This document shows positions 38,943-43,584 of a stretch of DNA of 64,000 bases, in pieces (the stretch's first letter is position 1; the number at the start of each line of letters is the position of its first letter). The stretch spans positions 258,317 to 322,316 of the forward strand of contig BPGU01000004.1 in the NCBI GenBank assembly GCA_026003195.1, given 5' to 3'. Under the pieces are notes generated by a model that was not told the DNA's origin, did not search any database, and saw only the letters and a program-made list of their open reading frames with translations. The translations under genes and the position numbers were made by a program. The DNA comes from Armatimonadota bacterium. Its GTDB lineage: Bacteria > Armatimonadota > HRBIN16.

Positions 38943-39089
38943 TCAAACCTTAATCTTGTCAACGGTCTTTGTCTGTATCCAGACGGGCGTGTAGAGCAAC
39001 ACCTCCACTTCCTGTCCGTCGGTGACGTGTATATCCCGCAACGGACGGAGCACGCCACCTTCTACTCTGGCTCTGAGCACGGTAATCAT
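38943..39089 (-). CDS. DUF104 (AF2212-like) small antitoxin-type protein
   Basis: 48 aa, below usual length cut-offs: MITVLRARVEGGVLRPLRDI then HVTDGQEVEVLLYTP and a basic tail. It fits the DUF104/AF2212-PG0164 family (I-x-V-x-A-x-Y/V-E-G-G-V-L-x-P-L ... L-x-x-G-x-x-V). AGGAGG stands 9 bases before the ATG and a TGATATAAT extended -10 lies upstream, so it is a real gene. Family members usually precede a PIN toxin; none follows here (the next gene is DUF4380), so it is an orphan antitoxin-like gene. Confidence 0.7.
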   Translation of the reverse strand: MITVLRARVEGGVLRPLRDIHVTDGQEVEVLLYTPVWIQTKTVDKIKV

Positions 39090-39146: not shown

Positions 39147-39175
39147 TTGACAACCTGTATACCTTGTTTTATGAT
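39147..39175 (+). promoter_or_regulatory. strong promoter of the HTH gene
   Basis: TTGACA (39147-39152), 17-base spacer, TATGAT (39170-39175), some 33 bases before the ATG at 39209. Close to consensus. Confidence 0.7.
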
Positions 39176-39208: not shown

Positions 39209-40093
39209 ATGCCTACCGTATGGCTGATCTGTCCGGATGCAGTGTTACGCGCACGTCTGTTGCGGTACTTGCGTGATGGGGAGCAAGTGACCGTATGCGT
39301 GAAGCCGTGCGTTGCGGATGCGGTGGTGGTAGTGCCTCCTGTGTTCACACAGGCTCAGGTGGAGACATTGCAGGCATATGTGGACACGGGCAGTGTACGT
39401 GAGGCGGCGAAGCGCAGGGGTTGTTCGGAGCAGACGGTTCGTCGTCATCTGGCGGCGGCGCGAGCGCGGGTGGGTGCGGAGAACGTGGCGCAGTTAGTGT
39501 ATATCGCGTGCGCGCTGGGTTTATTAAACGCTCTATCTAGTACCAATTGGGTACAAAAATGGCAAAATTTAGGTATTGACACGGGGGGGGGACAGAGTAG
39601 AATAGAGATAGAAAACAACCTCTCTGCTTGGAGGGTCCTTACCACCCATGAACCGGAGACCGTCTCGCCGTCTGCCTGTGGTGCTGGCGTGCTTGGGGGC
39701 AGGGTGGATGATTCTGGTTGCCCTGGCGGAGTACGCCTTACCTGGCGAACGGGTATGGTTGGTTGGAGAGCAGTACGACGCTGGTCAGGTAAGAGCGGGC
39801 ACGCGGATACGGCACCATGTTTGGCTGATGAACCCCAGTTTGCGTTGCCTGCAGGTGGAGGTACAACCCACATGTGGATGCACTGCCGCGGGGTTGCGGG
39901 AGGGAGTTCTACCTCCGCTGGGTATCCGCGAGGTGCAGTTGCAGGTAGATACGGAAGGCAGGATGCCCGGTACGCAGCAGGAGGCGGTGGACATCATCCT
40001 GCGCACGGGAGATGCCTCATGGCGCGAGCGGTTGACGGTGCGGTTTACGGTGGTAGGGCCTCAAGGGCAGCAGGGGAGATCGTGAGGAGGTAG
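39209..40093 (+). CDS. LuxR/GerE-type HTH protein; true 3' end uncertain at a run of nine G
   Basis: ATG at 39209 with AGAGG upstream and a near-consensus promoter. Residues 1-45 (VWLICPDAVLRARLLRYLRD) look like a shrunken receiver-like domain. Residues 46-106 are a GerE-type helix-turn-helix (TGSVREAAKRRGCSEQTVRR then HLAAARARVGAENVAQLVYI). Protein-like sequence stops near residue 127, where the DNA has nine G (39583-39591). As read, the frame stays open to 40093 across the whole DUF1573 gene in a wrong frame. With eight or ten G it would stop within a few codons (after about 130 aa), a normal size. So either the tract length is miscalled or it varies. Target genes unknown; the divergent DUF104 gene and the downstream cluster are candidates. 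Confidence 0.6.
   Translation: MPTVWLICPDAVLRARLLRYLRDGEQVTVCVKPCVADAVVVVPPVFTQAQVETLQAYVDTGSVREAAKRRGCSEQTVRRHLAAARARVGAENVAQLVYIACALGLLNALSSTNWVQKWQNLGIDTGGGQSRIEIENNLSAWRVLTTHEPETVSPSACGAGVLGGRVDDSGCPGGVRLTWRTGMVGWRAVRRWSGKSGHADTAPCLADEPQFALPAGGGTTHMWMHCRGVAGGSSTSAGYPRGAVAGRYGRQDARYAAGGGGHHPAHGRCLMARAVDGAVYGGRASRAAGEIVRR
39576..39603 (+). promoter_or_regulatory. promoter with a nine-G tract as spacer, upstream of the DUF1573 gene
   Basis: TTGACA (39576-39581) and TAGAAT (39598-39603) are 16 bases apart, and nine of the 16 spacer bases are an uninterrupted G run (39583-39591). Ten G would give the optimal 17. G tracts between -35 and -10 are the known basis of phase-variable promoters such as porA of Neisseria. 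The DUF1573 start codon is 45 bases downstream with GGAGGG between. Confidence 0.55.
39648..40085 (+). CDS. exported or membrane-anchored DUF1573 protein
   Basis: 145 aa. Twin-arginine-like charged start (MNRRPSRRLP) and one hydrophobic helix (residues 10-30). Then the ASH/Ig-like strand pattern of DUF1573: VGEQYDAGQVRAGTRIRHHV then LQVEVQPTCGCTAAGL (C76, C78) and VDIILRTGDASWRERLTVRF. The CGC(T) motif is the hallmark of the family. Function unknown; in several phyla such proteins are near vitamin K epoxide reductase or peptide genes. GGAGGG lies upstream. Expression probably depends on the G-tract promoter. A possible small peptide gene follows at 12 bp. Confidence 0.75.
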   Translation: MNRRPSRRLPVVLACLGAGWMILVALAEYALPGERVWLVGEQYDAGQVRAGTRIRHHVWLMNPSLRCLQVEVQPTCGCTAAGLREGVLPPLGIREVQLQVDTEGRMPGTQQEAVDIILRTGDASWRERLTVRFTVVGPQGQQGRS

Positions 40094-40264: not shown

Positions 40265-41485
40265 TTGAAAGGCTTCGTAACTGTGCTGGTCGTGCTTGGC
40301 TTGGTTGCATATGTTGGTGCACAACCCGTGTACCAAAACAGTGAGGTAGGCCGCTTAGCCAAATTGGCTCAGCAGTGGGAGGATCGCTCCGGAGACCTTC
40401 TTTGGAAGTGGACATACGACGTGTATGTGTGGTTTACAGAACGTTCTACTTCTGAACGGGATGTGCATGCACCTCCTAAAGGCGCGGCTTACCGAAAGGG
40501 GCTCAGGGTAGAAATATGCAAGCGCGGTCAGCAAGTGGTTGTTTCGGGGGAGTTTCCTACTTTTGGATTGCCACCTAGCTTGGCGAGCCTTTTGGCTAAA
40601 AATTATAGCCAGCGATTCGGTGCAAAGCGAGTGCATCTCTCTACGGAGCCTATCGGCGGGACGGTGGATACCCTGTGTGTATTTACGGACAAACTTGCTA
40701 TTGAGTACAGCGTCCCGCGTTCTACACCACCTCCTGTCCCCCAATCTGGCGACGCAGTGCCGCCTCCGCCATTGCTGCCTGTGCAAATCTGGAGTAGCTC
40801 TACGGAATGCCGGAGGCAGAGAAATCTTTCAGGCGTCGGCGAGCAAACTCTTTTTATGACAGTGTTGTCATTGGACAACCCACTACGGATGTATACCAGT
40901 GAGTGGCAAGTGGAGACCACAACACCTCAGACGGTAATTTTAAGGTCTACTTCTCCACCCGGCTGGGCGAATTCAACCATTCGAATGGTAATCCAAAGAG
41001 ACAGTGGGCGTCTGCTCCGCTACGAAATTCTTTCGGGGACGCCTGTGATGCCGGACGTATGGCAGATACAGCGCTTCACAACCTATTCTGGCATGGTGGT
41101 TCCTTCTTATGTTACACGAAAACGGGTCGTCCCCTTTGACAACCTCTGGATGCATATCCTATATCGGTTTTCTTTAAAATCTGTATCCAAGGCAGCTGGC
41201 TGTGACTTTCATCTGCCATTGGGAAATACCGTTGTGGACTACCGCCTGATTGACAACGTCACCTTCGAAAACCACGTTGAACCCAACGTTCAACAACATG
41301 CCGTACAATATCGTTGGTCTGGCTCAGTTCCCGAAGAAGCTGCCCTTAAGCGCATGGCATATGAGCAAGGCAAGCTCCCTTCCGCAGGTAAAGGTTTGCG
41401 GGCGACGTGGGCACTCTTTGTTCCCGGTGTGCTCTTACTGGTTCTGGCTATCTACTTCTACCGAAGGATGCGACAGACCATGTGA
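40265..41485 (+). CDS. exported protein with C-terminal membrane anchor, unknown family
   Basis: 406 aa from the TTG at 40265. I choose this over the ATG at 40241 because AGGAGGAGG lies between them, 11 bases before the TTG, and the TTG opens a clean signal peptide (MKGFVTVLVVLGLVAYVGAQ). The mature part is beta-rich with a proline-rich insert near residue 160 (PRSTPPPVPQSGD). The C-terminus has one membrane helix and a basic end (FVPGVLLLVLAIYFYRRMRQ). The architecture is that of a surface- or periplasm-facing anchored protein. GC content is lower than in neighbouring genes. No recognisable domain. Confidence 0.6.
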   Translation: MKGFVTVLVVLGLVAYVGAQPVYQNSEVGRLAKLAQQWEDRSGDLLWKWTYDVYVWFTERSTSERDVHAPPKGAAYRKGLRVEICKRGQQVVVSGEFPTFGLPPSLASLLAKNYSQRFGAKRVHLSTEPIGGTVDTLCVFTDKLAIEYSVPRSTPPPVPQSGDAVPPPPLLPVQIWSSSTECRRQRNLSGVGEQTLFMTVLSLDNPLRMYTSEWQVETTTPQTVILRSTSPPGWANSTIRMVIQRDSGRLLRYEILSGTPVMPDVWQIQRFTTYSGMVVPSYVTRKRVVPFDNLWMHILYRFSLKSVSKAAGCDFHLPLGNTVVDYRLIDNVTFENHVEPNVQQHAVQYRWSGSVPEEAALKRMAYEQGKLPSAGKGLRATWALFVPGVLLLVLAIYFYRRMRQTM

Positions 41486-41523
41486 ACGTCATCTCTAGGA
41501 CCAACAGAGCCTCGGTGCGGTGC

Positions 41524-43584
41524 ATGACTCTTCCTTCAGCAGGGGAGGTGGTATTGCTTGCCTTCCTGTGGTGGCATCTTGTTCCCAATACTCTCCTCGC
41601 CGAACCTCTGCAATGGGTGCTGTTTCGCACGCTGGACTTCCTCCTTTGGGTTGGCTTGCTGCAACCCCTCTATGCCTTGCTCGGTTACCACCCGCTGGTC
41701 TACCTGACGGGTATGAGCCTTGCGCTCACCTTGCTGGTATGCTGGCTGGTGGCGCGCTCCACCCTGTCGGTGTGGGCACAATCGGCTGACCGTGTAGTCA
41801 CCGCAGTCGTGTTGTGGAGCCTTCCCTACCTCACCGACTGGTTGCACTCTGCTCCCACCCCCTATCAGTATGACGGCACGTGGTGGCTGGGCTATGGCTG
41901 GGTGGTCTTCCTGCTGGTTATCCTGCTGCCACCTACCCGTGCTCCCGTTCTGCTCAGCAAAGGCATTGCCGTCGCTATCGGCGCACAGGCAGTATATGCC
42001 ATCGCCTACCACCTGCTGGACATCCGGCAGTTTCACACCCCGCACTTCGGTGCACGTACCGGGGGCACGCTGGGCACACCTAATCAACTCTACCCTGTAG
42101 CGATGATGGGCGTCCCTCTGGGTTTGGCACTCGCCCTGGGCGCGTCGCGGGTTTGGGAACGGGCACTATGGTTCTGCGCTGCAGCACTGTCATTGCTTGC
42201 TCTCTGGTTCACCTACACCCGCACGGGATGGATTGCGCTGGCGCTGACCCTGCCTCTGCTCACCGTTGGACAGGATGCGCTGATACACCAACGCTGGGCA
42301 AAGCGAGCGGTTTACACGCTATCCGCTGCTCTGCTCATAGCGACCGCCCTCGTCCGCACCGGTGGAGAGTGGGTGGGTAACCCTAACGACCGCTCCTTCT
42401 GGGGACGCTTCGCGATATGGCAGGTAGCGCTGGCAGTGGTAGCTGAGCACCCCTTTATCGGCGGCGGGGTGGGGACCTATCCTGAGCGCCAGCGGGCACA
42501 CATGACTGAGCATCTGTTGCGTTTTGACCCCATGAACACCGAACCGAAGAACCTGTATCTGCTGATTGCCTCCGATGTGGGGCTGTTGGGGTTGGCGTTG
42601 TTCGCGCTGATGGTGTGGCGGTATGTGCAACTTTACCGTCAGGGGATGCCTCGTCTGGCAGGGCACTTTGCCTCTCGTGCTCTGGTAACGGGTTGTACTT
42701 TGGGACTGCTCTGCCTGCTGATAGCAGGGTTAGGCGATTCACCGGTGCTGGAGTTCGGTCGCACGCCTTCCACCTTTTTGGCGATGGCGGTATTGGGCAT
42801 CGCGGTGCGCCAGTTGGACGCAGCGTTAGAGCATCCTCGTCTCACGCGTGAGGAGATTGGTCGCAGGGAGAGGCGTTTCTTGCTCCGTGCTGGTCTGGTG
42901 TTGCTGGCTCTGTTCCTGCTGGCGTCGGTTCCTGTGGCGTCGGGGCTGTGGAGGTTTTACCAAGCCAGACCACAGATAGACGCCTACCGCACCCTTACAC
43001 CTGCCCGTGCGTCATTCACCCCGCTGGCGGAGATCGCCGAGCCGATGCGCTATGCCCTCATCGCCTCCGAGGATGGCAACTTCTACCGGCATCACGGCGT
43101 GGACTGGCAAGCCCTGCACCGCGCCCTGCGCGTCAACATCCGACACTTAAGCTTCAAACAGGGTGGCTCCACCATCACCATGCAGACCGCACGCTATCTG
43201 TTCGTGGGCAGAGAAAAGAGCCTCTCGCGCAAACTCGCCGAAATCCTGCTGGCTCTGGAGATGGAGAAGCGGCTTTCCAAAGAGCGCATCCTGGAGTTGT
43301 ATCTGAACAGTGCGCGTTTCGGGCTGGGTGCGGAGGACATCGGCACGGCGTGTCGGGTGTATTTCGGCAAGCGTCCGAAGGATTTGACGTTGGCGGAGTC
43401 GGCGTTTTTGGCAGGGGTATTGCCGGAGCCGCCGAAGCGTCGTGAGGAGTTGACCCCTGCGAAGGTGGAGCGTTGCAAGCGGAGGGCTTTAGAGCGGTTG
43501 GGTTATTTCTTCGCGCGGCGTTATTCGTCCGAGCAGATAGAGCGGGCGATGCGGGAGAAGATAGTGTTCGTGTGGGAGAGGTGA
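41524..43584 (+). CDS. O-antigen-ligase-like membrane domain fused to GT51 peptidoglycan transglycosylase
   Basis: 686 aa from ATG 41524 (a TTG at 41554 behind GGGGAGG is an alternative). Residues 1-440 have about twelve membrane helices and the Wzy_C signature: FTYTRTGWIALALTL, then GRFAIWQVALAVVAEHPFIG and GGVGTY, PKNLYLLIASDVGLLGLAL. After one more helix (about 460-480), residues about 495-680 are a complete GT51 domain: ALIASEDGNFYRHHGVDW with the catalytic Glu (about 516), FKQGGSTITMQTARYLF, KRLSKERILELYLNSARFG. GT51 makes glycan strands from lipid II; WaaL/Wzy enzymes join lipid-linked sugars. No transpeptidase domain. I know of no standard family with this order. Confidence 0.8.
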   Translation: MTLPSAGEVVLLAFLWWHLVPNTLLAEPLQWVLFRTLDFLLWVGLLQPLYALLGYHPLVYLTGMSLALTLLVCWLVARSTLSVWAQSADRVVTAVVLWSLPYLTDWLHSAPTPYQYDGTWWLGYGWVVFLLVILLPPTRAPVLLSKGIAVAIGAQAVYAIAYHLLDIRQFHTPHFGARTGGTLGTPNQLYPVAMMGVPLGLALALGASRVWERALWFCAAALSLLALWFTYTRTGWIALALTLPLLTVGQDALIHQRWAKRAVYTLSAALLIATALVRTGGEWVGNPNDRSFWGRFAIWQVALAVVAEHPFIGGGVGTYPERQRAHMTEHLLRFDPMNTEPKNLYLLIASDVGLLGLALFALMVWRYVQLYRQGMPRLAGHFASRALVTGCTLGLLCLLIAGLGDSPVLEFGRTPSTFLAMAVLGIAVRQLDAALEHPRLTREEIGRRERRFLLRAGLVLLALFLLASVPVASGLWRFYQARPQIDAYRTLTPARASFTPLAEIAEPMRYALIASEDGNFYRHHGVDWQALHRALRVNIRHLSFKQGGSTITMQTARYLFVGREKSLSRKLAEILLALEMEKRLSKERILELYLNSARFGLGAEDIGTACRVYFGKRPKDLTLAESAFLAGVLPEPPKRREELTPAKVERCKRRALERLGYFFARRYSSEQIERAMREKIVFVWER

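Follow-up and report, generated by a model that had tools for sequence, protein, structure and literature searches.

In Neisseria meningitidis porA, a poly-G tract lies between the two promoter hexamers, and changes of a single base in its length shift the hexamer spacing around 17 nt (PMC3899988, PMC7864442). The promoter of Treponema pallidum tp0126, an OmpW homologue with an outer-membrane product, has its poly-G tract between the -35 and -10 elements with an optimum of 17 nt (PMC7864442). A repeat-length switch is joined with a DNA-binding regulator in the nadA/NadR system of N. meningitidis; the TAAA repeat of nadA lies outside the core promoter with repressor operators on both sides (PMC2791445).

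We analysed a 64,000-nt stretch of Armatimonadota DNA (the window), in which the original prediction had placed TTGACA and TAGAAT around a 16-base spacer with nine G. The same letters, TTGACA-C-G9-ACAGAG-TAGAAT, were read directly at 39576-39603 on the plus strand. The -35 hexamer TTGACA (39576..39581), which is TTGACG in several relatives, was also recovered by the consensus scan, and the -10 hexamer TAGAAT (39598..39603) by both the scan and the alignment of copies; the nine-G tract (39583..39591) is the length-variable portion of the 16-nt spacer (39582-39597). In the consensus scan of the window the site matched at 11 of 12 positions. A run of nine G is by itself unremarkable, with a mean of 0.89 per shuffled window. 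Promoter-like sites in the window were picked by a simple rule (n=18, including the poly-G promoter), and none of the other 17 had a spacer G/C run above 4. A Shine-Dalgarno sequence, GGAGGG, follows on the same strand (39630..39635), and a DUF1573 gene begins with ATG at 39648, 44 nt 3' of the promoter. We consider it probable, at about 0.8, that this is a spacer-type phase-variable promoter.

The promoter belongs to a family. Searching the 10 genomes of one Armatimonadota genus with the pattern TTGACNN-G7+-TANNAT gave 17 matches, against 0 for the reversed pattern used as control, and an 18th copy, in G008, has an interrupted tract whose spacer begins with CGC followed by seven G. These 18 copies occur in six of the 10 genomes, and the window's genome holds four of them with 9, 10, 7 and 10 G. 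Because some are related through recent duplication, the 18 copies do not represent 18 independent events. Most form the 3' end of a repeated gene for a LuxR/GerE-type helix-turn-helix (HTH) protein. Outside the genus, a search of 291 genomes of the phylum found seven scattered matches, none of them with this module in the adjoining sequence. A protein scan of genome contigs gave no match, and a pattern scan of the contigs returned those of two relatives only.

All 18 copies carry the homopolymer (G7-G11) inside the spacer, and sigma-70-type TTGACA or TTGACG and TAGAAT elements stand 14-18 nt apart, near the optimal distance, as in promoters of the porA/tp0126 kind. The original prediction was at odds with a single G count among relatives, and the copies had 7 (two copies), 8 (four), 9 (seven), 10 (four) or 11 G (one). 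The spacer was correspondingly 14 (one copy), 15 (four), 16 (eight), 17 (four) or 18 nt (one) long, its non-G part being constant in length except in the G008 copy. The aligned copies kept AAAATGGCAAAA..TATTGAC, the tract and TAGAAT, while the six bases 3' of the tract had drifted (ACAGAG, ACGATG, ACGCTG, TGGCAG).

We infer that within the population slipped-strand mispairing at replication would add or remove single G's in the spacer, moving it across 14-18 nt and thereby setting promoter strength. Promoter knowledge and the examples of porA and tp0126 suggest that 10 G (17 nt) would be the strongest state and 7-8 G weak or off, with the nine-G copy of the window of intermediate strength. The predicted targets are the DUF1573 operon in the window and other exported-protein genes at the other loci, the promoter having presumably travelled through the genus with the HTH module, whose 3' end it forms.

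Tract length was compared at matched loci, where the original prediction again fared well, since the counts were mostly unequal. Two loci of G000 and G006 (C4:508 and C2:944) that are 94.9% identical over 5.7 kb have 10 and 11 G respectively; the DUF1573 locus has 9 G in the window and 8 in both G009 and G003; and G002 C15 has 9 G where the matching G006 C2:688 has 8. The exception is a closer pair, G000 C1:920 and G006 C2:230, with 99.1% identity over 5.8 kb and 10 G in both. At matched loci the length of the tract thus mostly differs between close relatives, as would be expected of promoters of the porA/tp0126 kind.

Homopolymers are sometimes miscalled by one base in metagenome assemblies, and the genomes are drafts in which matched loci differ by one base, so that the length differences might be sequencing or assembly errors. 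Errors would hardly produce a range of 7 to 11 over several independent assemblies, however, nor the same count in the two assemblies of the 99.1% pair, and we consider this explanation very improbable. A real promoter might alternatively have a spacer of fixed length in each strain, the differences reflecting slow evolutionary drift with no switching. Although the equal tracts of the 99.1% pair and the 9 G in both tandem copies of G006 would suit such a promoter, as would a G9-spacer promoter before an RNase P RNA gene in a distant family (see below), drift does not readily explain why the tract varies in length while the adjoining spacer bases keep their number, why five lengths occur within one genus, why the 94.9% pair is unequal, or why other tracts at classic translational switch positions are also unequal between species. 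We regard a strain-fixed spacer as unlikely, and the comparisons support the phase-variable reading of the poly-G promoter.

The position of the tract at the end of the HTH gene raises another explanation. In the window this small GerE/LuxR-type gene (39209..39580, plus strand) comprises 124 codons as far as the poly-G tract; with 9 G its frame stays open to 40093, and with 7 or 10 G it would stop at the TAG of TAGAAT. Slippage could therefore alter the frame and the C-terminal tail of the HTH protein (TE-stop, DRVE-stop or a long extension) with no promoter involved, as the HTH frame of full-length copies does enter the tract and the three frames have different ends. However, at least six copies have an intact promoter although stops, frameshifts or deletions disrupt or truncate their HTH gene (A508, C252, G006 C2:230, C2:688 and C2:944, and G009 C23). 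Tract and hexamers are kept where the gene is truncated, deleted or stopped upstream, as in C252, G009 C23 and G003 C1, the HTH frame of the last ending 5' of the tract, and they are also kept at G003 C8, where a protein search reported no HTH gene. We rejected the tract as a tuner of the HTH tail, since it outlasts the HTH gene, and give this explanation hardly any credence. Moreover, in the overlap of promoter and HTH gene the third codon positions are the most conserved, with a conservation of 0.92 compared with 0.79 in the body of the gene, which argues that the DNA itself is under constraint there.

The C-terminal half of the HTH protein gave weak but consistent matches to GerE, EsrB and RhlR chains, and its Pfam GerE match (E=2e-4) fell below the cut-off. 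A structural model of moderate confidence (pLDDT 74) has a confident helical HTH region and a poorly defined N-terminus. The HTH domain thus resembles those of GerE, EsrB and RhlR, whereas this protein has only ~45 residues before the HTH and lacks a complete receiver domain, and its gene is often a pseudogene. A near-palindrome within the gene, GTACCAATTGGGTAC (39540..39554, direct reading), is a possible operator and is not conserved in G002. Another promoter-like site, P1 (TTGACA-17-TATGAT, 39147..39175, plus strand), lies 5' of the HTH gene, matches at 11 of 12 positions and is conserved in the repeat copies; readthrough from P1 could blunt the poly-G switch. Further upstream, at ~38980-39088 on the minus strand, a short divergent frame (MITVLRARVEGGVLRPLRDIHVTDGQEVEV...) resembles by eye the start of an AF2212/DUF104-type antitoxin, and this frame is common to the window and the C4:508 copy.

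We also analysed the genes behind the promoter. In the window, all on the plus strand, these are the gene for the DUF1573 protein (39648..40085), exported or membrane-anchored, whose orthologues in G009 and G003 likewise follow a copy of this promoter; a second membrane-anchored protein (40265..41485) with a hydrophobic N-terminus and no Pfam match; and an O-antigen ligase (Wzy_C) fused to a transglycosylase (41407..43584), followed in the operon by a type IV prepilin-like protein. An exported or membrane product had been predicted for the window. Across the family, the N-terminus of the first product resembles a signal peptide on visual inspection at no fewer than 16 of the 18 copies. The products fall into five unrelated groups, namely DUF1573, an exported protein of 510-550 aa and three families of small, cysteine-rich exported proteins, none of which matches Pfam. 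A start codon with a Shine-Dalgarno sequence lies 25-45 nt 3' of the -10 hexamer; at G003 C68 the automatic start choice was a later one, though a nearer ATG is present, and the G003 C8 copy is followed by an interrupted reading frame. The conserved distance of Shine-Dalgarno and start codon from the -10 before five unrelated families points to transcription starting from the poly-G promoter.

Repeats are present at both ends of several promoter loci, which stand in tandem in G006 C3. The 3' part of the Wzy_C/transglycosylase gene (window 43056-43584) recurs at the ends of six other loci (L061, L063, L067, L068, L073 and L074), at the 3' ends of the cassettes there, and the cassettes are therefore repeat-flanked. 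Several draft contigs of the relatives end inside these flanking repeats.

Tracts at the start of a signal peptide are the usual layout of translational phase variation, and the genus also has candidates for this type of switch. The window's genome had 20 further regions with G/C tracts of at least 9, of which ~10-13 lay, by eye, where a signal-peptide-like sequence starts or ends. The tract of an exported TPR-protein gene is a candidate translational switch: the gene is in frame in G000 and G006, where the tract has 9 G, and out of frame in G001, where it has 10, the 60 residues 3' of the tract being identical between the two versions. Tracts near the signal-peptide end of TPR genes were seen at L101, L112, L114 and L118 in the window's own genome, L151 in G001 and L152 in G006. 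RHS/dockerin-type genes have 8-11 C between the ATG and the signal peptide and are mostly out of frame as assembled (L102, L103, L107, L110, L122, L131 and L141), and within the genus a pattern of Shine-Dalgarno, ATG and C8+ was found at 12 distinct places, compared with 1 for the control. An 18-G tract right behind a short signal-peptide-like sequence was also noted (L116, G000:C3:903867-903884). The signal-peptide tracts add to the plausibility of switching by slippage in this lineage, although the large number that are out of frame could also reflect gene decay or wrongly placed starts.

A caution comes from G048, of a different Armatimonadota family, which has the sequence TTGACG-A-G9-AGTGAGG-TAGAAT with a 17-nt spacer 7 nt 5' of an RNase P RNA gene (L091, minus strand, promoter 1529-1501, RNA from 1493). 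It is plausible from this example that the architecture with a G tract as spacer makes a working promoter in this phylum. The RNase P RNA gene is an unlikely target of switching, and because the G048 promoter precedes it, a poly-G spacer alone is no proof of switching.

Taken together, these results lead us to lean slightly towards a phasome in this genus, in which a dispersible cassette of HTH gene and poly-G promoter would switch unrelated exported-protein genes, while RHS/dockerin-type and TPR proteins would have translational poly-G/C switches at their signal peptides. Simple-repeat phase variation is known mainly in host-adapted bacteria, for which immune escape is the usual explanation; if the proposal is true, multi-locus switches in an uncultured Armatimonadota genus would need another driver, such as phage, predation or biofilm life. 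One promoter with 7-11 G before different genes is also a natural series in which the spacer-length rule is directly testable. In the literature library searched, no paper linked Armatimonadetes or Armatimonadota to phase variation, and searches there on Chthonomonadetes, environmental bacteria and thermophiles found nothing relevant.

By analogy, the poly-G promoter is predicted to work as those of porA and tp0126 do. As in porA, the Armatimonadota copies have a poly-G spacer that places the hexamers around the 17-nt optimum. Unlike porA, a single gene of a host-adapted pathogen, the putative Armatimonadota switch is multi-copy and dispersed and overlaps an HTH gene. The tp0126 promoter also differs in being a single locus, and we know of no repeated HTH module there. 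In contrast with nadA, the Armatimonadota repeat is the spacer itself, and the HTH protein is only a candidate regulator. As far as we have found, what is new with respect to porA and tp0126 is that such promoters would form a dispersed family, and that they occur in this phylum.
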